64,000 bases of DNA, from the NCBI GenBank assembly GCA_032622095.1, contig CP136065.1, positions 247,627,474 to 247,691,473 of the forward strand, given 5' to 3'. Of this stretch, positions 10,479 through 54,900 are shown one piece after another. This stretch comes from Siphonodentalium dalli (lineage: Eukaryota; Mollusca; Scaphopoda; Gadilida; Siphonodentaliidae). Position 1 is the stretch's first letter. Each line of letters starts with the position of its first letter. The notes under the pieces are model-generated. The model saw only the letters and a program-made list of their open reading frames with translations. It was not told where the DNA came from and did no database searches. Position numbers and translations under genes: made by a program.

Positions 10479-10782
10479 TGATGGGCAATGAATTTTCCAT
10501 GCATATATATCAAACTGATCCTAGAGCAGACATCACTTTAAGTTCAAATTCCGATCGTGTGTAATCTTTCCCACTTTTTCTGGTTAGAGTGACTTCTTCA
10601 ACCTATCCGCACTTGACAATGTTTGAATCATGTCATGGCATTACAATTCGGAAACACCCAATAACGCAGGGTCAAATACACTCTATGATAAAATCATACT
10701 ATTGGGTAGTTGACAAGAAGTAATGAGCATTTTTTTGCCAACTTTTTGTTTTGTATTTTTTATCAATGAAAATTTTGGTTAA

Positions 10783-11128
10783 CCCTTTACCCAACAGAAG
10801 GGCCCTGTGCCAATGCATTCTCTTATATATGCGAGTCGACCATAGGTCGCCTCGCATATATAAGAGAATGCATTGGCTTAACACATTAAAAATTATAAAA
10901 TTGTTAAAGAATGTAAGAAAAAGTGTTAAAAAAAGATTTTTTTTAAGCCAATGCATTCTCTTATATATGCGAGGCGACCTATGGTCATAACAGGGCATAA
11001 CTGTAACTATCACAATGTGGTCAATGAGCCGGTTCCAATGATATCCATATTTGTATGGTTTTATTGAGACAGACCGACGATATTTTAGGCTGTTGAAGCT
11101 TTATTTGGCCGTTTTGTTGGGTAAAGGG
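10783..11128 (+). mobile_element. Double-hairpin TTAA MITE, family H1, copy 1 (hairpin 2 half deleted)
   Basis: Flanked by TTAA at 10779-10782 and 11129-11132, with inverted ends CCCTTTACCCAACA and TGTTGGGTAAAGGG. Hairpin 1 is intact. Hairpin 2 stops after CGACCTATGGTC and runs directly into ATAACAGGGC, so its distal arm is deleted. The subterminal side after hairpin 2 keeps ACCGGTT-like and CTGTTGAAGCTTTATTTGGCC sequence, which defines orientation. No protein is encoded; the frames reading QCILLYMR are translations of the hairpin. Confidence 0.9.
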
Positions 11129-11191
11129 TTAAAGACATATGTGCTTATTTCACTACTTACATCTCAGCCACGATACCCATTTGAAGAATTC

Positions 11192-11955
11192 ATCATTAAA
11201 GTGATGTGAAACACTCCGGTAGGGTGATAAAATAGGAAATTGAGAATAATCTTGCTCAAAGTAGTTATTTTTTTACGAATATTAATCCAAATTGACAACA
11301 CACACCGCCATTTTCATATATTAATCAAATGCAATGACTTTCGATGCTGAATTAAATTGTGTTAGTTTATCCGCCGCGTCCCGAATCGAGATGTAAATAT
11401 TTACAATTGAGTGTAGTTCAGACGATGTTTTCTATGGAGTGGTATGGTCGATTTCTTAAAAAATTTCGGTGACGTTTGTAGAATGCTACATTCCCCAGGT
11501 TGCCATATCGCATATTAACCCTTTACCCAACAGAACGGCCCTGTGCCAATGCATTCTCTTATATATGCGAGTCGACCATAGGTCGCCTCGCATATATAAG
11601 AGAATGCATTGGCTTAACACATTAAAAATTATAAAATTGTTAAAGAATGTAAGAAAAAATGGTAAAAAGTGTTAAAAAAAGATGTTTTTTAGGCCAATGC
11701 ATTCTCTTATATATGCGAGGCGACCTATGGTCGACTCACATATATAAGAGAATGCATTGGCACAGGGCATAACTGTAACTATCACAATGTGGTCAAGGAG
11801 CCGGTTCCAATGATACCCATATTGTATGGTTCTATTGAGACAGACCGAAGATATTTTAGGCTGTTGAAGCTTTATTTGGCCGGTTTGTTGGGTAAAGGGT
11901 TAAAGGATTAACTTATCAATTTCATGCACCCGAACAAGTCCATAATATGTCTTCA
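11192..11955 (+). repeat. Interspersed repeat R4, copy 3, split by a MITE
   Basis: Starts TTAAAGTGATGTGAAACAC at 11189 and runs to 11514, then resumes after the H1 MITE (11519-11899) with TTAAAGGATTAACTTATC and continues through CACCCGAACAAGTCC near 11930. Comparison with copy 2 shows the MITE landed at a TTAA. Confidence 0.85.
11519..11899 (+). mobile_element. Double-hairpin TTAA MITE, family H1, copy 2 (reference copy)
   Basis: 381 bp between TTAA duplications at 11515-11518 and 11900-11903. Hairpin 1 occupies 11545-11613: 27-nt arms (GCCAATGCATTCTC...GCGAG), a T-C mismatch (11572 against 11586), a 5-bp stem CGACC/GGTCG and an ATA loop centred at 11579. Hairpin 2 at 11693-11761 is the reverse complement of hairpin 1 (TAT loop, G-A mismatch). 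Between them is an AT-rich spacer of about 80 bp. TTAA duplication plus CCC ends suggests mobilisation by a piggyBac-like or other TTAA-specific transposase; this is inference. Confidence 0.93.
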
Positions 11956-12209
11956 AACTATTATTGTCAAAAAAAATTTAGCTACAGTTTTCTTGTTCTT
12001 GATAAAAACTTAAAATAAAACTATACTTTAATACTTACTTTTACTTTGATAAATAATTTGATGGAAAATTGGAAAATTGGAAAATTCTATTTACAACCTT
12101 TTCAAATCTCATGGACTATTCATACCAAATAATAATCATACTCTCAAGATCAAAATTAAAGTCTGAATCGAAATAAAAGTGCATAAATTTCTGACTAAAA
12201 CACATGTAT

Positions 12210-12703
12210 CACCCCTGGTCAAGTGGTCCTGCTAATGTGCTATGATGTGGTTGGGTCCCGCTGAATTGCTATGATGCTGTTAGGACAAACTGATGCTGTT
12301 AACAATAAGTACCGTTATTTTTCACTGTGTTTGGCTAATCTGCGTGATTTGAGATAAAACCAGTGTGTGTATGAAACATTCAAGAACACATATATCTTTG
12401 AAAAATATAATTATGTCTGTGCTGGGGTTTCTAAAACGACGTGAATAATCATCTTGATTATAGTCAATTTTCAAGAACAAATACAACCAGTATTAAAAAT
12501 ATTTCACAATATTAATATGTTTTTGATTGTTTGATACGCAAAATGGCTTTTCCTGCATTTGTTCAGATTTTCAGAACACCAGAAAAAAGACATTAACAAA
12601 ATATAATGGTACTTTTTGTTAACAGCATCAGTTTGCCCCAATAGCAATTCAGCAGCACCCAACCACATCATCGCACACTAGCAGGACCACATGACCAGGG
12701 GTG
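12210..12703. mobile_element. MITE with about 100-bp terminal inverted repeats
   Basis: Ends CACCCCTGGTCAAGTGG and CCACATGACCAGGGGTG are inverted repeats extending about 100 bp inward (TGCTGTTAACA words on both sides). Flanked by TGTAT at 12205-12209 and 12704-12708, a candidate 5-bp target duplication. No coding capacity. Superfamily not assigned. Confidence 0.75.
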
Positions 12704-12810
12704 TGTATATCCAAATGTGAAAGGTGGAATAGTGCTTTTAATGTCCTCAAATGGTTCCCAAACACTGCAAACCATCCATGAATTCTGCATTTATAATAAT
12801 GAACATTAGA

Positions 12811-12945
12811 ATTATGGGTAATTTTTCAGGATTTAGTCGGAAATATGGCTTGTTGCAACAAGCCATATTTCCGACTAAATCCTGAAAAATTGCCCATAAT
12901 TCTGCTGTGGTTAAGGAGTCGATTAATTAGGGCATTACTGTAGCA
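12811..12945. mobile_element. Near-perfect 90-bp palindrome (PAL family element)
   Basis: 12811-12900 is a self-complementary block centred between 12855 and 12856 (TGTTGCAACA) with one mismatch (GGGTAATTT against AAATTGCCC) and no spacer. It continues with CTGCTGTGGTTAAGGAGTCG and GGGCATTACTGTA. Parts of the same family lie at 13838-13925 and 33528-33620, each with a single arm. The arrangement fits a foldback transposon that underwent head-to-head inversion. Confidence 0.7.
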
Positions 12946-13267
12946 CTTGCAGTGTGAATTGTTTCTACTAAATGTCTGAGTGGGGACAAAACCAGCGATT
13001 GACAGAACCACGATCACATGTCAGAGTATAGTTCTGACCATTGCCCACTAAGCGAACTATAGTCTTCGTACTATTACCGCCTGCTGATGTCACTGTTAGC
13101 GTGAGGCGAGAATTGTGTCATATATAATAAAACACCTATTGACTGTGTTGGGATGGAATAGCGAGAGCTATTTTCCCTCGATGGTGTCTTCTGGTGCCTG
13201 CGGTCTCAGTTAATAGTCATGCTTGCTGTTCAAAAGACACCACCTCAGGAAAATTTGCTATTTCACA

Positions 13268-13432
13268 CCAAGGCAGTCAATACGTGTATACTACTATTCC
13301 ACCCCAAGGCAGTCAATACGTGTATACTATTCCACCCTAAGGCAGTCAATACCTGTATACTATTCAACCCCAAGGCAGTCCGTACATGTATACTACTATT
13401 CCACCCCAAGGCAGTCAATACGTGTATACTAT
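13268..13432 (+). repeat. Minisatellite, about 36-bp unit, five copies
   Basis: Units beginning CCAAGGCAGTCAATACGTG and continuing TATACTACTATTCCAC recur five times with 3-bp length differences (CTA present or absent). The repeat reads open in two frames (PKAVNTCIL, TPRQSIRVYY), which is a by-product of the unit and not evidence of a gene. Confidence 0.9.
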
Positions 13433-13837
13433 AATGAAAATGTTAAAGGAGAAAACAAACGATAAATGTGCTTCTGTTCAGACCATATATTTGGTTTACC
13501 GACACATGTCTATTCTATCTGTTTGCACATGCTTTGAGAATTATCCACATCAGAAGTCAAAGTAAAATAAAATTTGCAATCCTGATGGTCGTGTTTGTGC
13601 CACTCTCGAGAGCGCTGCTGGTAACACAGGGCATACTTTTGTTGGGTGTTTGGCCAGATAGCTTTGCTCACAAGTGAAAAAAAAATGGAGCAAGAATGAA
13701 GGTTGGAAGGCTAAAAAGAAGGTAGACTGTTTCTAGGTAGTTTCTAGGTAGGGTTAGTAACAGTAATAGCATGCCATGAATCTACTATGGTTACGCCATA
13801 GCCATGACGGTGAACTTTGTAACATTGAAAAGATAAT
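13433..13837. other. Intergenic, nothing recognised
   Basis: A short duplication GTTTCTAGGTAG occurs at about 13730-13751. Nothing else recognised. Confidence 0.4.
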
Positions 13838-13925
13838 GTACAGTAATGCTCTAAGTAATCGACTCCTTAACCACAGCAGAATTACGGGTAACTTTTCAGG
13901 ATTTAGTCGGAAAGCTCTCAGTTCC
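13838..13925. mobile_element. PAL family single-arm fragment
   Basis: Contains TACAGTAATGCTCTAAGTAATCGA, ACCACAGCAGAATTACGGGTAA and TTTCAGGATTTAGTCGGAAA, matching one arm of the 12811-12945 element in inverted order. Confidence 0.65.
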
Positions 13926-13929
13926 TTAA

Positions 13930-14184
13930 CCCGTTCGTGACGGTTTCTGTGCTGGTGCAGTATTCAATATCCTGTGCCAGTGCATTCCCGTATATATGTG
14001 AGTCTCCCATAGGGAGCCTCACATATATAAGAGAATGCACTGGCTTACAAGGTCAAGGTAAATATTGTTAGGCCAATGTATTCCCTTATATATGCGAGGC
14101 TGCCTATGGGAGACTTTCATATATAAGAGAATGCATTGGCACAGGGTTTTCGCAAAATTTCAGGAAGCTCCAGTCATGTGAGGG
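13930..14184 (+). mobile_element. Double-hairpin TTAA MITE, family H2, copy 1
   Basis: Flanked by TTAA at 13926-13929 and 14185-14188. Hairpin 1 (GCCAGTGCATTC...GTGAG, T-C mismatch, CTCCC-ATA-GGGAG tip) and hairpin 2 (GCCAATGTATTC...) are close relatives of the H1 hairpins, but the ends (CCCGTTCGTGA here, CCCTTTCATGA in better copies) and the spacer (TTACAAGGTCAAGGTAAATATT) differ from H1. Confidence 0.88.
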
Positions 14185-14188
14185 TTAA

Positions 14189-14454
14189 TAATGTATTATG
14201 ATATACTAGTATTATAATGTATAATATTTGTTCGTCTTCACTGTTGTAATTTATCAGTGTATTATATCAGGGAGTGGAGGATATTCTAAGAGAATCACGC
14301 TTGTCCTCCGATCGTCATAAATTTGTTAGGTGAAGGTCACCTGATTTAGGCATTTTTGTGTGCCAATTTCCCTTCGCATTGCTTACAATCATGCACTTTT
14401 CTCCAGGGGTGATTATTTAACGTTTATCGCGAAATTGAACCAGTGGAATATGAT
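14189..14454. other. Intergenic, nothing recognised
   Basis: No feature identified. Confidence 0.4.
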
Positions 14455-14707
14455 CAAGCCTTGAAATAGTGTGTCTGTCATTTGCAGAATGAGGTCCCCA
14501 GAGGGTGAATTTAGTGATGCTACCCCGCATAGCGGGCTAGCATCACCAAATTCACCCTCTGGGGACCTCATTCTGCTTACACCTCAGCAGAATGAGGTTC
14601 TCAGAGGGTGAATTTGGTGATGCTAGCCCGCTATGTGGGTAGCATCACTAAATACACCCTCTGGGGACCTCATTCTGCAAATGACAGACACACTATTTCA
14701 AGGCTTG
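14455..14707. mobile_element. Double-hairpin MITE, family H5, copy 1
   Basis: 253 bp with ends CAAGCCTTGAAATAG and CTATTTCAAGGCTTG, flanked by AATATGAT at 14447-14454 and 14708-14715 (8-bp duplication). Hairpin 1 spans 14484-14576, exactly symmetric about 14530: CCCGC/GCGGG tip stem, ATA loop, C-C mismatch at 14523 against 14537, long arms containing GCAGAATGAGG and GTGAATTT. Hairpin 2 (about 14589-14678) is its reverse complement with a TAT loop. The arms share no sequence with H1 or H2. Confidence 0.9.
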
Positions 14708-14867
14708 AATATGATCTCTATGCATCCAAAATCGAGATTCATGGTACGATCTAGGTTAGTAGAAGTCTCGAGTGTACCCTCTGGGAGCCGTCTAGGCTCC
14801 GTTCTTGCTACATTTAATGAAAATGTTATGACTGGAATTCTGTATCCCTGAATATATCTAACTCTGT

Positions 14868-15139
14868 AACCCTTTCTATACAAAATACTCATTGACGAGT
14901 AGTTATCTCGAAGGGAATGGTCAGATAATAAGTTTAACCCTTTCTAAACTAAATACTCATTGACGAGTAGTTATCTTGAAGGGAATGGTCAGATAATAAG
15001 TTTAACCCTTTCTAAACTAAATACTCATTGACGAGTAGTTATCCCGTAGGAAATATTCATATAATCAGTCTAAAGCTTTATATACTAAATACTCATTGAC
15101 AAGTAGTTATCCCGTAGGAAATGTTAATATAATAAGTTT
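14868..15139 (+). repeat. 68-bp tandem repeat, four units
   Basis: Units begin AACCCTTTCTA or similar at 14868, 14936, 15004 and 15072 and contain ATACTCATTGACGAGTAGTTA. A diverged related unit lies at about 15836-15910. The next unit boundary (15140) coincides with the TTAA of the following H1 MITE. Confidence 0.9.
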
Positions 15140-15141
15140 AA

Positions 15142-15517
15142 CCCTTTACCCAACAAACCGGCCAAATAAAGCTTCAACAGCCTAAAATATCTTCGGTCTG
15201 TCTCAATAGAACCATACAAATATGGATATCATTGGAACCGGCTCCTTGACCACATTGTGATGGTTACAGTTATGCCCTGTGCCAATGAATTCTCTTATAT
15301 ATGCGAGTCGACCATAGGTCGCCTCGCATATATAAGAGAATGCATTGGCCTAAAAAAAAATCTTTTTTTAACACTTTTTACCATTTTTTCTTACATTCTT
15401 TAACAATTTTATAATTTTTAATGTGTTAAGCCAATGCATTCTCTTATATATGCGAGGCGACCTATGGTCGACTCGCATATATAAGAGAATGCATTGGCAC
15501 AGGGCCGTTCTGTTGGG
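15142..15517 (-). mobile_element. Double-hairpin TTAA MITE, family H1, copy 3 (right end shortened)
   Basis: TTAA at 15138-15141 and 15518-15521. Both hairpins are present; hairpin 1 carries one arm substitution (GAATTCTC). The right terminus reads TGTTGGG directly followed by TTAA, a 7-bp loss of TAAAGGG between two GGG repeats. Confidence 0.9.
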
Positions 15518-15835: not shown

Positions 15836-16045
15836 TTAACCCTTTCTTCACTAATATAAATACTCATTGACGAGTATTTCCCTTAGGAAATGTTTAGATA
15901 ATTAGGCCGTTAAAGGTACATGTATTATCTGAACATAGGAATCCATCAGCACTAATATCTGTTTAGTTACTGAACACCCCTCCAGATGAACAGTAGACAA
16001 TTCCAATGTATACTCTTATAAATGATGAGAGAATCCATTTATTAA

Positions 16046-16489
16046 CCCTTTACCCAACAAAACGGCCAAAAACGCCCAAATAAAGCTTCAACAGCCTCAA
16101 ATATCTTCGGTCTGTCTCAATAACACCATACAAATATGGATATCATTGGAACCGGTTCATTGACCACATTGGGATGGTTACAGTTATGCCCTGTGCCAAT
16201 GCATTCTCTTATATATGCGAGTTGACCATAGGTCGCCTCGCATATATAAGAGAATGCATTGGCCTAAAAAAAATCTTTTTTTAACACTTTTTACCATTTT
16301 TTCTTACATTCTTTAACAATTTGATAATTTTTTCTTACATTTTTTAACAATTTTTATAATATTTTTCTACATTATCATTTTTAATATGTGTTAAGCCAAT
16401 ACATTCTCTTATATATGCGAGGCGACCTATGGTCGACTCGCATATATAAGAGAATGCATTGGCACAGGGCCGTTCTGTTGGGTAAAGGG
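16046..16489 (-). mobile_element. Double-hairpin TTAA MITE, family H1, copy 4 (long spacer)
   Basis: TTAA at 16042-16045 and 16490-16493, intact CCCTTTACCCAACA ends and both hairpins. The spacer is longer than in other copies because of extra TTTTTTCTTACATTTTTTAAC-like repeats. Confidence 0.92.
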
Positions 16490-16685
16490 TTAAATAAAGA
16501 GTAAATCAATCATTGATACTCTCTCAACTGGATAAAATCTGCCATGAAAGTTCTGCATTTTGACACTCATTTATTCTCTGCCGTTTAGAAAAAAGCCTCT
16601 TGAAAAATTAAGCAAAAAAAAAAAACTACTGCAATTTCGTTTGCAAATGTTTATCATAAGACTCTTCATTTTATGGTGGCCTTAA

Positions 16686-17077
16686 CCCTTTACCCAACAG
16701 AAGGGCCCTGTGCCAATGCATTCTCTTATATATGCGAGTCGACCATAGGTCGCCTCGCATATATAAGAGAATGCATTGGCCTAACACATTAAAAATTATA
16801 AAATTGTTAAAGAATGTAAGAAAAAATGGTAAAAAGTGTTAAAAAATGATTTTTTTTAGGCCAATGCATTCTCTTATATATGCGAGGCGACCTATGGTCG
16901 ACTCGCATATATAAGAGAATGCATTGGCACAGGGCATAACTGTAACCATCACAATGTGGTCAATGAACCGGTTCCAATGATATCCATATTTGTATGGTTC
17001 TATTGAGACAGACCGAAGATATTTTAGGCTGTTGAAGCTTTATTTGGCCGGTTTTGGCCGTTTTGTTGGGTAAAGGG
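16686..17077 (+). mobile_element. Double-hairpin TTAA MITE, family H1, copy 5
   Basis: TTAA at 16682-16685 and 17078-17081, complete ends and both hairpins. Nearly identical to copy 2 at 11519, only about 5 kb away, which points to recent activity or local spread. Confidence 0.93.
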
Positions 17078-17081
17078 TTAA

Positions 17082-18480: not shown

Positions 18481-18715
18481 CAAGCCTTGAAATAGGGTGT
18501 CTGTCATTTGCAGAATGAGGTTCCCAGAGGGTGAATTTAGTGATGCGCATCACCAAATTCACCCTCTGGGAACCTCATTCTGCTGAGGCATAAGCAGAAT
18601 GAGGTCCCCAGAGGGTGAATTTGGTGATGATAGCCCGCTATGCGGGGTAGCATCACTAAATTCACCCTCTGGGGACCTCATTCTGCAAATGACAGGCACA
18701 CTATTTCAAGGCTTG
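18481..18715. mobile_element. Double-hairpin MITE, family H5, copy 2, next to the SIRT7 3' end
   Basis: CAAGCCTTGAAATAG and CTATTTCAAGGCTTG ends with flanking GGAGGTGCATGAGAAC at 18465-18480 and 18716-18731. That is a 16-bp direct repeat, twice the 8 bp seen at the other two copies. Hairpin 1 has lost its tip (AGTGATGC joins GCATCACC); hairpin 2 is intact with G-G mismatch and TAT loop. It ends 40 bp beyond the SIRT7 stop codon. Confidence 0.88.
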
Positions 18716-18754: not shown

Positions 18755-21179
18755 TTAGAATTTCCTTTTCTTTTTGTAGTTTATTCCCTTCCCAAACCAC
18801 CCAGGAGCGGTAGCTGGGAACTTCCGCTTCGCAGTGTCGCCCACACTGTCAGAATCACTCTCATTCTTAATCCTCGACATTCGTTTGGAAGTGTCATTGT
18901 CCGTATCATCCTCATTCTTATTTATCGACTTCTGCCTTGTAGAGTCACTGTCCGTATCACATTTAATTGTTTTCCTCGGTCGACCCCTCTTTCGTTTAGC
19001 AGTGTTACCAATACTGTCACATGTAGTTCTCAAGTTCCCTTTGACAACACTATGAAGTATATCATTCTTTAATGGAGTGCCCCTACTCTGATCAACATTA
19101 GAGTTGGAGTCGTTGTCAGAGTCTGTTTCACCTTTATGGTTTTTCTCATCTTCCTGAGTTTTAGAAATAATGTTCATATTTTCCTCATCACGACTAAACC
19201 TAGATTCTTCATTTGACTCTGATTTAGCTTGCATATTTTGTGTGTTACCTTCAGTTGATATATTTTTAGGTTTGGTCCGAGGTTTCTGAATACTGTATTC
19301 TGAGATCAGTGTTGGTGATGCTGTTATAGTACAATCAGAGCCTACATCATCGGAATTTTCTGGAATGTCCATTGAAGACGCTGAATGCTCATCATAATCT
19401 GATATAATAATTAGGTTGTCAGCACTGCTAGCCATTATTGAGCTGCGATTATTTTTTAAGTCTTTAAAACAGTCTGGTGATGATGCTGTTTCTGAGGCAG
19501 TGTCGGTTGTCTCCCCTGATGTAGCATCATCTCCTACATTACTGTCACTATGGTAACTATGATGAGATGAAGATTTAACATCCGTTTCTATCTTGTTTGT
19601 AACATCCGTTTCTATCTTGTTTGTTTTTGTCTTATTGTAATAATTATGGTCCTCGAGTAAGTCTTGCTGTTTTTCTAACAATTCAGCTACTGTTTTATTA
19701 TTCTTCTGTTTGGCTATATTTTTCCGAAGCCGATTTAAAATATTCCTAGTCCTACTACGGTCCAGATAACTTGTCTCATATAGTTTGACCAACTCTTCTT
19801 TTGGCTCCGATAATGTTTCAAGATGTTGCTTCGATAAATTTACAGCATCACCATGGAAACCATCTGTTTCTTTCTTCACCAGTTGCGGTAAGATTTTCTC
19901 ATATTGCGTTGAGGAATTAGCTGCAGCACAACCAGAAATTAATGCCAGGTTCTCACCCATAATTCCAACAGGTGGTAAATTTGGAATGAGTCCTCCGAAT
20001 GGATTCCGGGGAAGAAACTCTCTATTAGTCATCATCACAGCTTCGTATTTAGTATCACAATTCTTGCTTGTATTAATATCATTGCTTTTTGTTGGAGAAT
20101 TCGATGAAGCATGAGGTGATTGAGCTGAGAGAAGACGGGAGATTACAGGTATATTGGAACGAGGTGGTGTAGCTATATGAGGCAAAATGGGTGAGGTCAA
20201 AGTGGGTAAAAAGGGTGAGGTCAAGCTAGACATTTGTGATGGGAGGTGATTAGAGAGCAATGGCGAGTTTTGGTGAGCGAGCAGAAATGATGTAGACTGA
20301 TGCATATTGTGATGAGGAGATAGGGGTGAAGTAAAATGAGGTGATGGAATAAGGTGAGGCGATAGCGTTGATGTAAAATGAGGTGATCGTGTTAGGTGAG
20401 GTGACAGCGGTGAGGTGACATGCAGTGATGGTGTAAGATGATGCGATAGAGGCGAGGTAAAATGATGTTGTGAGGTATTCGTTGAGGACGTTTCTGTGCT
20501 GTCAGCAGATTTATCCACATTTTGAGGCACTTTTGTTGAATTATTTTCTGATTTCACAGGTGAGGAACTGGACTCGGTAGCTTGTTGATTTCCAGCACTC
20601 CATTGGTGCATATGCTGCAGCATGGCTTGGTAGATTTCAGGGTTTACTCCACCAGGTGACGCTAACTGTCGTCTGTACATCTCATTCTGCATCATCTGAT
20701 GAGTTAACATATCGGGCGATCCAAAGTCACTCGGACCGGAACCTACCTGGAAGCTATTTATGGAATATGGAAGAGGAGGTAGCTGTTGGTTGAGTGTCCG
20801 GTAATATCGCGGATCATATTCCAGGAATGGTGGCGGCTTAAAATCTTCAGCCATCTTTGTAACATGCAATGTATTGACATTTTTCTCTTCTTTCAAGAGA
20901 TGTGCTATATGGAATGGTTTCTTTAAATCTTGCTGCACTTTTGAATTATCCCCCTTCTCGACTCTTCTGCTCGTCTTATGCTCCCGTTTTCGGTTTGATG
21001 TTTGAGCATTTTGTTTACACATCACATGGTTCTTAGGCTTGAATTTCTTTTCACCTATTTCGGTCAGCATATCTTCAGTGTATTTATAATCCATAGGCGG
21101 GATGAGCAATTTCTTGGTTGTACTGCGTAGCTCTCTTGGCCTAAGACTGGTATCCAGCATGAATATCGGATCATATTCC
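18755..21179 (-). CDS. SIRT7: SIRT7 terminal exon encoding an 800-residue low-complexity tail
   Basis: 2425 bp after acceptor TTCTTGCAG. It starts in phase ([13 protein letters not shown], matching the WQDPIFSL of vertebrates) and ends RKF-TAA. The tail is predicted to be disordered: Ser/Asn/Asp-rich, a 14-residue repeat unit of type [14 protein letters not shown] at about residues 598-649, an AT-hook-like KRKRGRPRK near 1087-1094, SDSDS acidic patches, and the conserved PGWFGKG with final basic cluster. Uninterrupted frame across 2.4 kb and conservation of both edges argue that the whole exon is coding. Confidence 0.93.
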
Positions 21180-24100
21180 CTGCAAGAAGAGAGAAATAAT
21201 AAAGTGGTATGGCAAAGTTCTTACTTGGACATTAATCAAATGTAGTTTAGATATTGCAATAATTACATGCAGTTCATTTTCAATAGTGTTTGCCATATAT
21301 TCAATATGTTTTAATAAAATTTTAATTCTGCCTACCCTATTTTTTGAGAAACTAAAAAAATAAATATATTCCCAATTTTATTTTTATATTTTTTTCTTCC
21401 CACCTCCCCTAACTTTCAGCGCAAACAATCTGTAAAACAAGTAATAACAAAAATTCCGTTGTTTGCAAAATGCTAATGCATTTAGATAGGAAATTACTAT
21501 TAGGAATTTCATCATGGCAACACGCAATATCAAGGCAACACGCGACATCATGGCTACATGCGATATCATGGCAAAAATCACAATAAAGTTCCCAATATTT
21601 AACAATATTTCCAATTTATAATGCATTTTCAGGTTGATATTTTTCACCGAGACGTAATTATAAGTAATAGTCTCGGGTTCCTACTGTATAGACCCATCAG
21701 TTAGCCCATCCCTGAGGATAAGCCCAGTCTATGCTTTTGCTCCCAAAACAATCATGGGTTGGTCCACGAAGATAAGCCCACCCCGTTTTTTTAGAACTTG
21801 GAGGGCGAGTATACATTGATGTCAGGTTAACTCACAATGAAGATGTCAAAAATTCAAGTACAAATATAGCATTACTCAAACTAATTTTCCATTGAAAACT
21901 CATTAATACTACCTCCCCCATTGTGTTTCATTAATACTACCTCCCCCATTGTGTTTCATTAATACTACCTCCCCCATTGTGTTTCATTAATACCACCTCC
22001 CCCATTGTGTTTCATTAATACTACCTCCCCCATTGTGTTTCTCAAAATACTGTATTACAATATGTAAGATGATTTTGATGTCTTATTTTAAATATCTATC
22101 TGACATAATAAAACACAAAAGAATTTATTTTCATTAAATAAATTAATATACATCATGATTCATATAAACATGACATTAGATCAGCGCTATGAATGCTAAT
22201 TGAAATTTTGAATGTGGGGTCCTCATCGGTAAGCCCAGTCTAAAGTGTCAAAACAATCATGGGTCCTCCGGGCTTACTGATGGGTGTATAAGTAATCTAA
22301 TTACACAGTTTAATGGCTTCGTGATTTATAAGTTAGGAATTCAGCACGATGCCTTTATACTGTGTAATTACATTAGGAAACCAAGATTATTACTTAAATA
22401 TTATCATTTTAAAAGATTTTAAACTGCACAAATTTGATCAAATTGAGTGATTTATGAGTTATTGCATGTAATTCAATATTCTTGGTTGCCTAAGATAAAA
22501 TCCAAAATAAATTTCTTCCCTGGGAATGATTCCCAAGAATGGAAATATTTTATATTTTCCTTACCTGCTGTAGGTTGGTACTGATGTGTTCAACTCCTCC
22601 ATTAATCGTCTCATCACAAAGTCACACTTCCCTGTAATCCGGCAAAAATAATTAATTCAAGCTCATATTATGAGAAGCTACAACACAAATTCATGATTCC
22701 ATTCAAGCCTTGAAATAGGGTGTCTCATTTGCAGAATGAGGACCCCAGAGGGTGAATTTAGTGATGCTACCCCGCATAGCGGGCTAGCATCTCCAAATTC
22801 ACCCTCTGGGAACCTCATTCTGTTGAGGTGTAAGCAGAATGCGGGGTAGCATCACTAAATTTACCCTCTGGGGACCTCATTCTGCAAATGACAGACACCC
22901 TATTTCAAGGTTTGATTCCATTCCATTAACCCTTTCATGATGGGAGCAGCGCTGGTGCAGCATTAAAGATCCTGTGCCAGTACATTCTCTTATATATGTG
23001 AGTCTCTCATAGGGAGCCTCGCATATATAAGAGAATGCACTGGCTTACAAGGTCAAGGTAAATATTGTTAGGCCAATGCAATCTCTTATATATATGAGGC
23101 TCCCTACTAGAGTCGATTGTGAATCCGCTTCAGTTTACACACACACGTGGGTCTAACAAAACTATTATGGGAGTTTATTTTTTAAGTGACTTCAGTTGGT
23201 ATAGTACCATCCTGTAACATCCACTGTAGACTAGCAATGTATCTTTTAATATTGTAATATTTATTTTAAATCAGAGACATCATCTTTTGATATCCACTGT
23301 AGACTAATAATGTATATTTATATATCATATGTTACATTTTCATAGGCATGTCATAATTTATTGGGCATCCAATGTGGAGTATTAAAATTAATAGATTAGG
23401 CCAAAAAAAAAAGTGTTTTGGTTCTCGGGCAATTTTTTTTTCAAATCAATGAGGGAGGGAGGGTTTTATTTTTATTTTTTTCTGCGCATAGTAAGCATGG
23501 ACAAAGATACCTTCCTCTGTCTAGTGATAACCAGAAAGGTAGAGGGAACTGTTATGCATATAAACTCATTTAGTCTTATATAAAAATGACATTGTACTAC
23601 CAGTGTATGACTGGGATTACCTAACAATATATAATGCCCCTGACATTAACTACTGTTATTTTTGTCTAAAAACTGACACCTCCCCATTCTAATATGTGAT
23701 CCTGAATTTAGTCCTGTGCCTTTCAATTGTATAACGTTACAATTAGTGTAAGTTGTTCACAATGACTAATTATAAGAAGAGCGTGAGGATCAGCTAATAA
23801 TTTTCTTAATTGTAGTCATCTACTTCATGTTGTAAGCCTGCAAGTCACTTTTTAACACATTACATGTTAGAGCTCAATGCACACTAATATTCAACACATA
23901 TCTGCTATGGACATGTTGATAAAATTTAATTTGTTTTCTTCTTCAAATTTTTTTTCCTGGTATTCAAATTTTTTTTCCTTGTAAGTTTTTTTGTCATAAC
24001 ATCAGGCATTGCAATAAAAAGGCCTAATGCGGCCCTTTTTATTCAATGCGGCGGGGCCTGAGAACCAAAACGTTTTTTTTTTTGGCCTTAAGGTTGGAGT

Positions 24101-30100: not shown

Positions 30101-33100
30101 GGATTACTAGTATTTTGTTTGGTGGTGGTGTTTACATAGCTAATCCTCTTGCAATGTGACGCGCCCTTCTGATGAAGCGACCCTTCTATCATATTATTGT
30201 TCGGTGATTGATTTATTGTTGTATGATAAACCACGAAAGAGATGCGAGTATATTATTAACTAAATGCTTTCCTATCGATATCAAACGTCGTTCAAACCGC
30301 GAGTGTCAAAGCATAAGATCCAATCAAGTTTACAGAAAATTATACTATCAGGGATAACATTTGGCAAATTCTAAAAGAATTTGGCAAAAAATATTTTCAT
30401 TTGGCAAATAATTTGGCAAAAGTAAATTTCGGTCCAGCACGGACCCTGGCAATATCAAAGGTTTCGGAAATCTTTCATGTAGATGTGATTTGAGATACAT
30501 CTGTATACATAATGTTGCGGTTGGAACGAGCCATGTCCGTTTAAGCTAGAAATGAACATATTAAGTCGGGATTTTTTTTTACCCTGTGCCAATGCATTCT
30601 CTTATATATGCGAGTCGACCATAGGTCGCCTCGCATATATAAGAGAATGCATTGGCCTAAATTTTTTTTACAATTTTAATAATTTTTTCTTGTATTCTTT
30701 AACAATTTTATAATTTCACGCATACAGAGCCCCAGACAATACATGAGCAGACGACACTCTTCTATATATGTGTGAGGCTCCCTGCAGGGTAATGGATGTT
30801 TTTTATTTTATGTCCTAAAAATTGTAAGAAACATTTATTTAAAAAAAATGATAAAAAATTGTTAGGCCAATGCATTCTCTTATATATGCGAGGCGACCTA
30901 TGGTCGACTCGCATATATAAGAGAATGCATTGGCACAGGGTAAAAAATATTTGAAATGTTACCTTTAAACTGGTGCCTAAACAGAGAATAATATCACAAG
31001 AGTCAGCAAATTTAATGGCCTCTTTCCATCTGTATGGAGATTTTGTTCCGCCTTTTTCACCAAAATGCACAATGGTGTCGACCAGATTTCCTGAACATTT
31101 ATGACACTTTCTCCCAGTTTTATGACGACGAAGTGATGTCTTCTCCGTAACATCGAACAGTCGAATGTACTCCCGGTGCGGCTTGCATGACTTACAGATC
31201 TGTAAAAGAGATTATCACGATTGCTATTTTTGGGATCAAAATGAGTAAAAGAATAGTCGGGGGATGGAAAATTCTATAACATCAGATAAAATTAGGTGCT
31301 AGACTTATAGTATGCGCGGAAATTAATAGCTATCCCCAGGAAAATTTGAATGTGATCTAGAGGTTACCAATTTAATAGGTGCGACAATAACTATCAGTTT
31401 TAGGTTTCAAAGAAAAGCTTTACTTGAATTGAACTAAGTAGTAGTAAGTTTTTCAGAAGATTGATTATAAAGGTATCCATGTTTGAAACTAGTGATGAAG
31501 ATCTCACGAGACAGAGTGTAGATTCACCATAGTAATATTAACCCTTTTATGATGGGAACTCTGCTGGTGCAGCATTAAAGATCCTGTGCCAGTGCATTCT
31601 CTCATATATGTGAGTCTTCCATAGAGAGCCTCGCATATATAAGAGAATGCACTGGCTTACAAAGTCACGGTAAATATTGTTAGGCCAATGTATTCTCTTA
31701 TATGTGAGGCTCCTTAAGAGAATGTATTGGCACCGGGTTTTCACCAAATTTTAGGAAGCTCCAGTCATGGAAGGGTTAAAGTGATGTGAAACACTCCACT
31801 GGGGTGATCAATGGGAATAGAGAGGTTTTTTTTTCATAAATGTTATATGCGCAGCACACTTCATTCTAATATATGAATTATAGGAGGCAACTCTATTTGG
31901 CCTAATCATAACCGAAAAATTAAGACAAAAATGTTTAAGACATTATGTCAACATAGGTGTGAATTTCGGTAATATTATTTGAATGCTGCATTCTTTCAGT
32001 GGCTTAGTCTCAGGGTACTCACGTATGAGTTCGATTCACTGAAATAAGCACACAATAATATTTACATCTTTAAAATGAGACAGCACCAAATTCCTTTGTT
32101 TGTATCAGTTTTACGAGAATTCCAAAACAATGTAATTTTCATTACCTCAATATACATGTTGCCATGGAGTTCTGAAAGTCTGTTTCTTGAGAACCCGCTT
32201 CTCATATGAAGTCCGTCGCAATTCTGTGACACTATGTACTGTATCTGTATTCAGAAATAACAGAAATAACATTTAATAGACCATAACGCAGTTAACGTAA
32301 GTTGTAGATGAAGGAATTTGTAAATCGTTCATTTTAATTCATTATTGAGCATCAATCATTATAGTAAGTGTATTCACCATATACCACTAATCTGTATTGC
32401 TTCATCTATTTGCATATATCGCAAGACTATTCCATGTTTTAAAACTGAATGGAACAAAATTTTATATCATCCAAATTTGAAAACAATTGGATAACTGTAA
32501 CTAAAGTTATCATCTGTAAAACAAAATAATCGGCAAATTCTATGTCGACAAGGACCATAACTATGGTAAAATTTGGCAGACCGCACCCATATTCGAAGCT
32601 GACCTGTATTGTTGAAGCGATAATTACTATCACTTCAATTATCCTTTCGGAGGCATATAAAGTCAGTATGTAAGTATTTGATGCTTTTATCAACTTATTT
32701 TTTACCCCTGGAACATCACAAAGCATGTGTTTGCTAGGTTTAATTAATGTAGATGTTTTATTCATGCAATAAATACAATTACAACAATGCATTCATTACA
32801 ATAAAAAAGTCAGTTGTAATTGTTGTGTGGGAGTGACCGTCTTCCTGACACCTCCGTATCAATACTAGTATCAATAATGTCTACACATGCATGGTTTCCG
32901 CTATTGGTTGGGGGAATGGGACTGGTAGCTGCTAAGGGGAAAATTCAGTAAATAATTTCTATGTAGACACACCAATTTATCTACATGTACTTTCACCATA
33001 TAGGTCTATAAATTATAATCTCGAAGTGTAAAATATTGTAATTGGCAGATAATTTTACCTGCAAATATTGTCAAAATTGTCAAGCTATTAAACCCTCTAA

Positions 33101-39100: not shown

Positions 39101-42100
39101 GTAAACTTAGTGAAGATCATGGGGCACGCAGCATTTTGCATGCTACTTTTCAATTCCAGGTAAGTGATGGCACATAAGAGCAATTGTGTGCCTCACAATC
39201 AAAGGACTGTACATGTATCTCTCTGTAACGTGCCTTCCCCACAGATAATAAAGATGCCCAATCAAAGCGGTGGCAAGGTTAATAGTCTGGGAAATATTCA
39301 ACATTAAAGGGAGAAATGGGTGTGTTTATATGTCAATTGAGATGTAATTTAAATGAATAACGACACGAGAATCGATAATAGTGGCTTGTCCCATCATTTA
39401 TATTCGTGGAAGAAAATGTATACAGGAAACAGCGGATGTTTATTCTGGATCTGGATTTGTACGTCCAAGTAGACAATTGTGGTATGATAGGATGTTTCGA
39501 TTACGCCAAGTAACCTCTGCGATTATTCGGGAATTGCAAACTGAGACCTACAGCAATTTGTACATTAAAAATCGACCAAAATGTCATTGTCAATGAGAAA
39601 GAAGGTCACATTTGCTGCTGATTAGTACTAGTAGCAACTTTAGTAGTCTCTTCTAGACTAGTCTCTAGGTCATGCCAAATGTTCGCCGTAAAGCATTTCT
39701 ACCACTTGTTCGAAAACAGGTGTCCCCAAAAAATCCCTGGATCCTTCACTGATATTATATATATATGCATAGTATTTGTTTATCTAAAATGGCAACCATA
39801 TATGTGCATTTCTCAATGTATATTGCCATGGCACACTGGTCCTCGAAAATCAGGAATAATTTATTTTGAATTTTTTTACACATTCTTCTGGAATGTGCTA
39901 TGTCGCTGGCTAAATATCAATAACTTTTGCGGGGAAATGTGAGTGCCAATATGAAGTCGCTTTGGATTCAACATACGACATCACCTATAAGAGTTTATGT
40001 GAATGTGCTTTTAATAATTTACTAAACGAAACATTGTTTATTTAGTGATATGACAAACATTTAGACATTTACGAGATGTGTAATGTTGTTTTCGCGATGT
40101 GGCTAACGTAAATGCGCAGTTTACGTAATTTCCGTCATTTTCTGAATGGCATAGCAACCTGAGTCAGGTCAACAATATTTATGATTTAAGTAATGATTAT
40201 TGTTTAAATTATAAACCCTGTAACATCTTCACTGATGAATACTGTTATGTTGGCCATATGAAAAGAAACAATTAGTAGTTTTAATTTAATTGTAATGACT
40301 TTTCCAAGATGGCGGCACCTCAAATTAAAAAATGGTGGCGCCCATGTTGAAAAGCGAATTTAGTATAAGGACGACCAGCGCATGTGTTGCAATCACAAAT
40401 TCACAATGACGTTTATTCAACATTAAGTGTAGTGATCTCTGATTCCGGACATTGCCGAAGTAGGAATCGAGAGCACCGATCATGACATCATATTGAGCCA
40501 TTCATGAGATACGTTACCAAAGAGCACTCCTGACATGGCAGCTAGCTGGTTCATAGGCCGAATATCCATCTCATTGACCATAGATATGACGGTGTCTCCT
40601 CCTACCGGTATCCAGATTCAGGACCTGTGATCCTGCACACCATCCATCCTGCGAGGTCCAACTAATGAGGACTGTATTCTATAAAGCGTGGGGGAGTGTA
40701 GTGATCTCCGATTCCGGAAATTGCCGAAGTAGGAATCGAGCGCACTGATCGTGACATCATATTCCTGGTTTGACCATGTAAAGATATATACATGTGTATA
40801 ACCGTAGTGATTAGTGATTTAGTATTGGTTATCACAATATAAATTTATAATCACTGATCGACTCGTCCAACAAGCCCTCCTTGACCTGTGTACAGAAAAC
40901 TGTCTCGCTCAACTACAGGAGAAACCATTCAAACCAACAAGAGAAAACAACGTTCTTGACCTCATTATTACGAACAAAACCGCACTCGTCAAAACCACCA
41001 GCAACATACCCGGAATCTCGGATCATGATATGCTAGTGACCGACTGTATGGCTACACCATTCTTCATACAGCAAGTACCGAAGAAGACTTACAACTTCGA
41101 AAAGTGCACAAAGTGGGATACGATCGCGAATGACATCACCAATGTGGGGAAACAGCTTGAGGACATGGACACCAGCCCAGTTAACACCATGTGGGAAACA
41201 CTAAAGGGAGGCATCAAAACATTAGTGAACAAGCATGTCCCGGTCAGATCCAACTAGAAAAAAGACCAGCTACCTTTGATAAATCAGAAGTTGACAAGAA
41301 TGCTCAGGAAGAAGAACAAGCTCCATCGGAAGGCTCACGTCATATCTCCACCATTGACGAAAATCTTTCGGAAATCCATCGAAACTGGCGAATTGCCAAA
41401 CGACTGGAGAAATGCGAACGTGGCACCTGTGTACAAGAAAGGTGATGTACATCTACCTGAGAACTACCGCCCAGTGTCACTTACCACCGTGTGCTGTAAG
41501 ATCCTTGAACACATCATCTGCCGCCACATCTTAACACACCTGGAAGATCAAAACATCTTAACCCACCTAAACCACGGATTCCGGAAAGGCCATTCCTGCG
41601 TCACTCAGCTTCTCACGACAACCCAGGACATAATGAAAAACTTCGACAAAAAAGTACAGAAGGACATCGCCATCCTCGACTTTTCCAAGACGTTTGATAC
41701 CGTACCACATAGGAAGCTACTGGCGAAACTGGAAAGCTACGGTATTACTGGCCAAATACATTCATGGCTGAAAACCTTCCTAACAAAGGGAACCATGCAA
41801 GTCACGATTGAAGGTGAATGCTCATCGTCGGTGCCTGTGTAGTCTGGTGTACCACAAGGAACTGTGCTCAGCCCCTTGTTATTTCTTTGCCACATCAACG
41901 ACTTGCCAGAGAGAGTTACCTCACAAGTACGCTTGTTCGCAGATGACTGCTTCTTGTACTGGAAGATTAGAAACATCAACGACCAGATTGCTCTGCAGAA
42001 GGACTTGATGGCGTTAGAAGATTGGGCTACAACTTGGGGTATGAAATTCAATGCCAGCAAATGTTACATCATGTCAATTAAACCACGACTGACCTACATG

Positions 42101-51900: not shown

Positions 51901-54900
51901 ATTGCAATTTGTTTTTGTTCCGGGAGTCGCCATTGTTACAGTGATCCTCTCATTACAAGTTACGGCGTACGCAATGAAATATGCTTACCTAAACTTTGAA
52001 CTTGGAAGCGGTCTCACAAAACAAAAATTGTGTAGGCCGAACTATAAAAGCTTCCCAGTTGTTAAAAGACAAAAGGTGTGGCCAATGGGAATTTGGGAAA
52101 TCTCAGACAAATATGATAGCAATTATTATCCATCAATCTAAATTGAATTAATAATCATCGCCATTCCATACATTGTCGCAACTTACAAGTATTCAATCAA
52201 GACGCCGCATTCAAGTGTTCCCCACAGTGTCATAACGTTACTCTGAGTTGGCACCTTTGATCTCTTTGTCAAACAACTACCGGTATACATCAAAGGCAGC
52301 GCACAATTGATGTTGGCGGAAATACTTTTGTGGCAGTGTGTATATATTTCTTTGGTATATTTGGCTTTGAAACTGTACCGAGATAGGGAGTGCAGTGAGT
52401 GTATATAGGTCCATTATGGGAACAAACGCAGAATATATATAAACATCGGAATCGGAAATCAGCCGATTGTGCCTCCAGTTATCAGAAATCGGTCCGATGG
52501 GCTTTTTCATTATTGGAACATCACTAAATAAAAATGAACCTTACCATAAGGAAAATACTGGACATTCATCTGGATAGTTAAGTTAGATTTCAGAACCTTC
52601 ACCGCCTGAAAAAAGTGTTTGTTTAATATTAGAGACGAGTCAAATATACAGGTGGGAAGAAATGCATATTATGCTGACAAAGTAACATTGGGAGTGAATA
52701 TCACCTAATTATTTCAACATCTTCCTTGGGTTGCAGAAAATAAAGTATAGAAAAAGGTTACTACATGTCAGCCATCCTAGGGTCTCCCATGGGTCATATA
52801 GACCTGATTGTTTCCAAAGAAGATGTTTCAGAGAGATCACTATATTTTTTGGGTAAAAAGTTAATTGATCAGGTGGCCCCATCATGATAGTATAGGATAA
52901 TTTGATTTTGATTTACAATATGCACACGAAGAGTACAAATATAATATGATAGTCATGTATCTTGTTTGGGGTCCTATCACCCCTGCCCCATTTGAACTAA
53001 GCTTAATGCCAGTTACCGAGAGACCATCCACACAAAACATTACCCCAGAAACTCAAGAAGTGTCACCATGGCCTGACTACTGAGTCAGAAAATACTTTAA
53101 CTGTCTGAAGTTTTGTTGATGGTAAGACTCTAAGGGGTAAGGGGGTAAAGCCTGAGTTTAGTGTGCTTGTCATTTGCAGAATGAGATCCCCACAGGGTGA
53201 ATTTAGTGATGCTATCCCGCATAGCAGGCTAGCATCACCAAATTCACCCTATGGGGATCTCATTCTGCATGTCCTCATCTGCTATGGGAGACATAGATTC
53301 AGATTGAAGTTCCCTAATGGTGAATATTGTGATGTACACCCATTGGGAATCTCGATAATGCACTGTGTCGTCTGCCATTTTTGGGATATAGAGAAACTAA
53401 ACTAAAATAGAAATAGAATCGATGTGAAGAAGTTTCTATAGAAATTTGATAATAAAGAAACTTTCCAGAGAAGATGAGACCTAAGCATAATGAGGTCCCC
53501 AAAGGGTGAATTTAGTGATGCTAGCCCACTTTGCGGGATAGCGTCACTAAATTCACCCTCTGGGGACCTCATTCTGCAAATGAGACTAGGAACAACAGAC
53601 AACAAAAAGAAAGAAAAAAATTGTCGATGGACAGACAAATGGACAAACAAGGTGCAATGACTATAGCTCCACCACAGACTGTTCTATAGTCCAAGTCTTC
53701 TCGTACTAAAGCCGGCTAAGATATTGGGATGGAGGTGCCAGTCTTTAGTCCGAGATCGCGCGCATAGCCTTCTTATGACACGAGTTACGCCCAGGATCTG
53801 TGGCGGGAATCTGTGGTGTATTTTACTCGATTTACCTAACAAAGCAATACATGATGCTATATACGTCGGAAAGAGTGACATCTTATGGTCAGAATGGTGT
53901 ATAATAATCTAACTTTAATGTTAAATTACACATAGAATATTCCGGTTGATTGCCACAAACATCGTTGTTTTTTCTGTTTGTTTACTAACTGAAAGCCGAA
54001 CTCAGGTTCCGAAGAACTTCGGCATTGTCCGGTGTTTGTTCTGAGTATTCTAGTTTCCGTTTCTATATATAGCGCGGGGTTTTCCGAACAAAATGTCGAA
54101 AACCGATCGCCGCAAAGTCCAGTTTCCAATGTGCTTTGAGAACAATTCCCGCACTAAAAACTTAATGACATAATGGAGGATCAGAAAGGTAGTTTTGTTG
54201 ACAATTTTCGCAAGCAACTTGTCAAAATTGGAGCAAATTAGAACTCTTGTGTCTGACTTGCCATGCGTGTGATTTTCATCCATGTGCATTTTGACTTTTG
54301 TGTTGATAAAATAATCGGAGAACCGAATCACACAGTTTCAAAATATAGTTCTTCCGTTTTAGTGGGACTTTTCAAACTTAAGGTTAAAAATTTATACAAA
54401 TTTTGTTTGATTTTTTGTGTGCTTAACAAGAGCAGTATATTGCTCTGTTCGCTTAGTATATATCTTAATTTCGCTGAAGTCCACCAAATGTGGGAAATGT
54501 AGCACCATATTATTTATTCTAATGCTCGTTGTGTTTACACTGTTTTAAACTTTGAGAGGGTTGTAATTCCCTGTAATTTATTTAATGTATTACATTTATA
54601 TCTTCAATGTTTAATTAATCTATTTATTTTTTATTTATTGACACACATAATTACGATTACAATGGAGAATTCATCGTAATTTGCGTTGTCAGTCGAAAAT
54701 CTACGGAATATTTTCAACAGAAAATGCCGAACACAGTTCGCGAGGTCAACTGAGTTCGCATACTTTTAAAAATTTGTAAACATTGCGGTAAATGTCTCTT
54801 TTCGCATTAAATTACCGCTTTCAATTCACAACTGATGTGGGTTTCAGATCAAATAGCATGTCTTCTGTGGAAAATATCCGTTTATTGTCGCAATTGTGAT

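Follow-up and report, generated by a model that had tools for sequence, protein, structure and literature searches.

The question raised by a 64,000-nucleotide stretch of the genome of the scaphopod mollusc Siphonodentalium dalli (contig CP136065.1, here C5; C5:247,627,474-247,691,473, hereafter the window) is why miniature inverted-repeat transposable elements (MITEs) of different classes carry long palindromes that end in one small, asymmetric hairpin tip. The palindromes of two element families, A and B, have a common 15-nt core composed of a pyrimidine-cytosine (Y.C) mismatch, a 5-bp stem and an ATA loop. Genome counts revealed that the mismatch changes about as often as the neighboring arm pair, and fold-back synthesis from a small hairpin seed is tentatively preferred as the origin of these structures.

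A palindrome scan of the window was combined with a profile search for A and B hairpins in the window and in a 200-kb sample (L031-L050, drawn from C1, C2 and a single C3 stretch) of the 2.23-Gb genome (2.227 Gb in nine contigs). Thirty further genome loci (L001-L030) were chosen as the best matches to family A; one of these, L002, lies in the window and was left out of most analyses. Profile matches numbered 30 (window) and 21 (sample) for A hairpins, and 11 and 20, respectively, for B hairpins. Across all sequence examined, 189 palindrome centers were found, compared with none in one mononucleotide shuffle of the window and sample. The hairpins that define the core are as follows.

11545-11613, + strand: H1, family A palindrome with 33-bp arms, a sole mismatch (T.C at pair 6) and loop ATA; core T-CGACC-ATA-GGTCG-C at 11572-11586.
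11693-11761, - strand: H1', the reverse-complement palindrome, with a TAT loop, a G.A mismatch and an additional C.A at pair 10.
13976-14044, + strand: H2, palindrome of subfamily A2, with T.C at pair 6 and two more arm mismatches; core T-CTCCC-ATA-GGGAG-C.
14072-14140, - strand: H2', the reverse-complement partner of H2, with several more mismatches, one of them in the tip at pair 3.
14484-14576, + strand: H5, family B palindrome with 45-bp arms, C.C at pair 6 and A.C at pair 16; core C-CCCGC-ATA-GCGGG-C.
14587-14678, - strand: H5', an imperfect reverse-complement palindrome in which one base is lost at the mismatch position, leaving a bulge, and which has G.T in the tip stem.
53176-53268 and 53485-53577, + strand (53176..53577): two diverged B hairpins, seemingly of one longer B element.

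A preliminary description of the window had assigned this tip design to H1, H2 and H5, and the palindrome scan agreed with it in all three. It had also treated the tip as common to unrelated families, which holds for A against B (distinct target duplications and no similarity outside the tip) but not for H1 against H2, both of which belong to family A. The second hairpin of each element, described as the reverse complement of the first, is so in H1', apart from the added C.A; in H5' a bulge replaces the mismatch, and H2' has further mismatches. Diverged copies were said to retain the mismatch class, and T.C is indeed kept in the copies at 53176 and 53485, although transitions alone would give a pyrimidine-pyrimidine pair. 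When nine tip strands were folded as DNA, z values of -5.8 to -8.7 were obtained.

Family A and B elements differ in target duplication, which is TTAA for A and 8 bp for B. Six A-B local alignments of arms, ends and shells, and spacers revealed no homology, between 141 and 269 of the 300 shuffles doing equally well or better; the lowest value among all eleven alignments (36/300) was for B with G, a further palindrome family described below. Common descent beyond the tip was therefore rejected for the two families. Within the 15-nt core, by contrast, 8-11 bases are identical, with 11 shared between A2 and B2 and only 8 between A1 and B1 (the A1 subfamily being that compared with A2 below), and the loop and mismatch type are the same. 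Given the same architecture, and with the comparison being post hoc, the probability of an ATA loop and a Y.C mismatch in one orientation is ∼0.008, and that of 9, 10 or 11 identities is ∼0.026, 0.0096 and 0.003, respectively. Judged on these sequence comparisons, the A and B tips are alike beyond chance and the elements are unrelated.

The question of whether the mismatch is kept was addressed with exact genome counts. A genome-wide count of the 35-nt A tip, with any base allowed at the mismatch and loop, gave 117,580 occurrences, against zero for its reversed control. T.C is present in 115,574 of these tips and changed in 2,006 (1.71%); the adjacent arm pair is changed in 1,975 of 117,549 (1.68%). 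The reading of the preliminary description, in which selection would keep the mismatch better conserved than arm positions, was thus not supported. Fully paired tips are not depleted, since restoration to T.A was observed in 540 copies, as compared with 543 for a control C-to-A change at a paired position (pair 7; a count that includes at least 18 copies in tandem arrays), and restoration to G.C was observed in 200 copies, 3.3-fold above the 61 for a T-to-G control at pair 8, which lies in another context. The G.C excess may stem from context or from weak correction. Correction of palindromes after insertion was rejected, only 2 copies having a double compensatory change at pair 7, where chance would give at most ∼8 if all 1,975 changes were of those two types. 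After insertion, tips drift about as arms do. The mismatch may still have a role in the mobility of active master elements, since drift would be seen in fixed copies with or without such a need in the master.

Pairs were also tabulated one by one for the 33 pairs of family A in 57 hairpins; neither L002 nor the match-selected copies of L001-L030 entered this count. Comparison of the consensus of A1 (103 copies) with that of A2 (18 copies) revealed that tip pairs 3 and 4 are changed on both sides and that pair 29 is partly shifted, the two being otherwise nearly identical; the mismatch, the loop and pairs 1, 2 and 5 are unchanged. A2 copies were picked by the tip stem on either side, and the A1-A2 tip difference is partly a product of that choice; its two-sidedness is not. 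In 23 B copies, the mismatch takes the form C.C in 12 and T.C in 11.

The hairpins lie within elements that exceed them in extent (11515-11903, 13926-14188 and 14455-14707 for those above). The elements of the window are listed here, with shells denoting the sequence outside the hairpin pair.

11515-11903, + strand: family A element in shell S1, TTAACCCTTTACCCAACA...GGGTAAAGGGTTAA; inverted ends at 11515-11540 and 11878-11903, TTAA at both ends; genome copies have the same shell.
13926-14188, + strand: family A element in shell S2, TTAACCCGTT...TGAGGGTTAA, from the shell comparison.
14455-14707, + strand: family B element, CAAGCCTTGAAATAGTG... with an inverted end; 8-bp duplication AATATGAT at 14447-14454 and 14708-14715.
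18481-18715, + strand: two-hairpin element of family B, whose left hairpin (18510-18583) has no tip; a 16-bp direct repeat (GGAGGTGCATGAGAAC) at its flanks takes the place of an 8-bp one.
30588-30934, + strand: family A hairpin pair in partial S3 shell context, from the palindrome scan and shell comparison.
56398-56860, + strand: family A module bounded on either side by shell S3 (TATGTGACCC...), with hairpins at 56451-56519 and 56739-56807; near-identical genome copies.
61195-61591, + strand: S1 family A element, TTAA-flanked.
10779-11132, 16042-16493, 16682-17081, 55490-55889, 58850-59251 and 59426-59737: other S1 family A elements, TTAA-flanked.

The 30 best genome matches to A are flanked by the shell TTAACCCTTTACCC...GGGTAAAGGGTTAA, and the same hairpin pair was found in the further shells TTAACCCTTTCATGA, TTAACCCTTTGAGTGCC and TATGTGACCCGCC. 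Family A is thus, by sequence comparison, a module housed in at least four MITE shell types, mostly piggyBac-like. TTAA was present at both ends of all eight S1 elements listed in the window, and the S2 and S4 ends likewise start TTAACCC; the S3 shell does not. Terminal repeats of piggyBac-like elements start with CCC. In the shells with ends CCCTTTACCC...GGGTAAAGGG, which enclose the hairpin pair, both a CCC start and subterminal inverted repeats were found, and S1, S2 and S4 are classed as putative piggyBac-like MITEs by TTAA and ends. Insertion of the A module into S1 was rejected, as no S1 copy without the module was found in the sequence examined. The A modules at 30588-30934 and 56451-56807 have long spacers, a piece of which resembles another, degenerate hairpin tip. 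A-type hairpins also recur at regular spacing (∼14.56, 11.17 and 7.86 kb) in G000 at C1:742,000-926,000 and C1:94,237,000-94,292,000, seemingly in large tandem arrays.

B elements have the ends CAAGCCTTGAAATAG...GGCTTG. Their target duplication, inspected in eight elements, matched at 7-8 of 8 bases in five, at 6 in one and at 1 and 2 in the remaining two, which include the element at 18481. The terminal consensus of hAT elements is CAGNG, which is not found in B (CAAGCC...GGCTTG); B is accordingly called no more than hAT-like.

Position and polarity within the elements are regular. Modal distances of the hairpin from the element end are 30 and 153 bp in S1, 53 bp in S3 (3/3), ∼50 bp with scatter in S2 and S4, and 29 bp in B (13/18). 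Where a hairpin lay at the expected distance, all 114 end matches of family A had the ATA strand running from the outer to the inner side; they represent 106 distinct hairpins, and 73 of the 114 come from L001-L030, chosen as best matches. For B, the ATA strand pointed inward in 13 of 15; the two exceptions are 151-bp elements with a single hairpin between terminal repeats (L031:6745-6895 and L047:7490-7640, the latter with a perfect 8-bp duplication). A further 19 ends were set aside because their nearest hairpin lay beyond the expected distance (A, 3 outer-to-inner and 13 reverse; B, 3 reverse), a pattern expected if the first hairpin had been lost. Hairpin transfer of the parvovirus type gives flip and flop orientations of an asymmetric palindrome and was rejected, as only one polarity was observed in the 114 A end matches. 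Single-strand transposons of the IS200/IS605 type have same-strand hairpins at both ends and make no target duplication; this identity was also rejected because the hairpins here form inverted pairs and target duplications are present.

Other palindromes of the genome carry related centers. Family F has the core GGC-TC-GGCC-TAC-GGCC-TC-GCC, with a 4-bp stem, a 3-nt loop and a 2x2 TC/TC mismatch. Its genome count was 306, against 37 for the control; among the 50 matches listed, a 15-nt core was present in 39, the other 11 being left out, and TC/TC was present in 36-37 of these 39. Family G is represented by 342 exact genome copies of CCC-TC-GGAGC-NNN-GCTCC-TC-GGG, with a 5-bp stem and the loop left free. 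A single copy with a 5-bp seed was found in L047, and TC/TC remnants were found in L036. Family C (L031:8666, L031:5542, L018:455, L001:1261, L012:2124, L036:5393, L038:4573 and L038:5790) has a paired stem without mismatch and seven different 3-nt loops in eight copies, its arms differing by 4.6% per site; the window copy at 12803-12908 lacks the center. Palindromes with centers of 0-1 nt are present at L033:929, at L035:644 and at window 12803-12908. The tip mismatch is a recurrent theme and not a rule, because F and G carry 2x2 TC/TC, C carries none, and centers of 0-1 nt exist.

The explanation that we tentatively favor, at less than even confidence, is that fold-back synthesis enlarged small hairpin seeds into the long palindromic subterminal repeats now seen as hairpins, with the mismatch as an inherited scar. 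The starting point would be a small inverted repeat of 4-5 bp with a 3-nt loop in a non-autonomous DNA transposon. A single strand would fold back at this seed and extend on itself, producing long, near-perfect arms; the 1-2 unpaired bases at the junction of the seed with the arms would be what this fold-back left behind. Amplification of the product by transposases that act at the outer ends would have followed, and an inverted hairpin near each end, at fixed distance and polarity, is what might be expected of a transposase-binding subterminal repeat. Near-perfect long arms do surround a short seed and a tiny loop in A and B (5 bp and 3 nt), F (4 bp and 3 nt) and G (5 bp and 3 nt), with arm sequences that vary from family to family, and fold-back synthesis explains the geometry, the position and the absence of special conservation.

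Stems of only 4 bp serve for fold-back inversions in yeast, where loops are short and, in sae2 mutants, were 3 nt long in 16 of 20 occurrences (PMC7467729), and a review states that repeats of 5-9 bp with 3-12 bp spacers suffice (PMC7999016). Snap-back by Pol theta is able to give inverted-repeat insertions (PMC9962433), and a title cited in the same article has POLQ extending from mismatches. PiggyBac-like elements carry subterminal or inner inverted repeats, and the search made for them allowed repeats of 5-15 nt, spacers of 2-10 nt and no more than one mismatch (PMC12324416); small repeats of this kind could act as seeds.

Several points weigh against fold-back synthesis. A single hotspot (15-bp stem, 3-nt loop) probably accounts for much of the yeast count of 3-nt loops, and fold-back extension is said to require a paired 3' end (PMC7467729). 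The helicase domain of Pol theta suppresses snap-back (PMC9962433), and in another yeast study template switching favored inverted repeats of 40-80 bp in size (PMC10766183). Neither the ATA loop and Y.C mismatch shared by A and B nor the recurrence of T.C or TC/TC in A, B, F and G is predicted by it, the excess of G.C-restored tips counts against it, and no parent element without long arms was found. The compensatory tip change is unexplained, and extension from a mismatch is the weakest step. The two-sided A1-A2 change, with no correction seen, hints at selection for pairing in masters.

The serious rival, which we consider rather unlikely, is that the tip is a recognized structure, a transposase or host factor reading the extruded hairpin as DNA or as transcript RNA, with T.C or G.A and the loop marking strand or direction. 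The likeness of the A and B cores without other homology, the constant polarity relative to element ends, the paired change at tip pairs 3-4 that spares mismatch and loop, and the related TC/TC tips of F and G would all fit such reading, as would the better folding of the reverse strand in the DNA model (-15.6 versus -13.2 kcal/mol for A and -18.4 versus -15.1 kcal/mol for B). The F and G strands are only 0.4 kcal/mol apart, however, F and G differ in detail, C is without a mismatch, and the mismatch pair is no more conserved than an arm pair, with T.A restoration equal to its control. Evidence from the piggyBac-derived PGBD5 is likewise divided: its ChIP (chromatin immunoprecipitation) peaks overlap hairpin-forming repeats, but the gel-shift assays of the same article gave no shifted bands (PMC12324416). 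An extended form, in which a single tip code (3-nt loop, 4-5 bp stem and T.C or G.A) was adopted independently across transposase classes and extruded tips are read by a host or transposase protein with the mismatch as a polarity mark, is unlikely.

Descent could replace function if the A and B tips were homologous, a small tip having crossed from one element class to the other, through template switching or the capture of a module, and acquired rebuilt arms. Modules do move between elements, given the presence of A in at least four shells, and the differences between the A2 and B2 cores are limited to paired changes; however, 15 nt is too short to prove descent, the A1-B1 identity is low, arms, ends and spacers are without similarity, and F and G are left unexplained, so that this origin appears quite unlikely. 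Survivorship, in which perfect palindromes are unstable, a near-tip mismatch hinders cruciform extrusion and only asymmetric centers persist, is improbable. That central asymmetry affects palindrome propagation is the subject of a title (Chalker et al. 1993, cited in PMC7999016), and the multicopy families A, B, C, F and G all have a loop or mismatch at the center. Palindromes with 0-1 nt centers are nevertheless present, 740 fully paired A tips persist at about or above control rates, and neither ATA nor T.C is predicted.

Palindromic subterminal repeats and palindromic MITEs are already known. Ends starting with CCC are a likeness of piggyBac-like elements to A. MITEs of the hAT type, which resemble B in 8-bp target duplication, CA...TG ends and short non-autonomous form, differ from it in that B has CAAGCC termini in place of CAGNG and 45-bp palindromic subterminal repeats. 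The IS200/IS605 and REP/RAYT systems resemble these elements in that their ends bear imperfect, strand-polarized hairpins; unlike them, the present hairpins are inverted at two ends and target duplications are made. The piggyBac-like Ifp2, MER75, MER85 and Looper resemble A in the TTAA target and in inverted repeats near both ends (PMC12324416, a preprint). In Ifp2, as in S1 with its two distances given above, the spacing is asymmetric (3 and 31 nt to the terminal repeats); in contrast to those elements, A has 33-bp arms, a fixed tip mismatch and one module common to several shells. Tm1 Mutator/Foldback (PMC3169594) and palindromic MITE-like elements of Anopheles (PMC3212995) also have long palindromes capable of folding back, whereas here there are usually two separate hairpins per element, with defined tips, inside separate terminal repeats. 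The yeast short-loop fold-back inversions share the short seed stem, short loop and long arms (PMC7467729), but there the products are chromosomal rearrangements that arise de novo and have a paired 3' end, whereas the present transposon modules are amplified and carry 1-2 mismatched bases where the seed ends. A search of open-licence literature by title and abstract opening found nothing on a hairpin tip shared across element classes.

Elsewhere in the window, a reverse transcriptase fragment (PF00078) was identified at 41258-41842, an 821-aa open frame without a Pfam match at E 0.001 at 18755-21220 (- strand), and a 68-bp unit in ∼4 tandem copies at 14867-15147. An Rfam scan of the window gave zero families at gathering score, and a known RNA family was rejected as the identity of the hairpins.

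With more than 115,000 occurrences of one asymmetric tip (any loop sequence allowed) and a similar tip in an unrelated class, the genome offers a natural experiment on the birth, tolerance and amplification of palindromes. The counts suggest that palindrome arms in the young family A are not detectably corrected toward pairing after insertion. If the tips are read, a hitherto unknown hairpin-reading step would exist in DNA transposition. If they are seed scars, they would be fossils of fold-back synthesis in transposons and would explain the origin of palindromic subterminal repeats.

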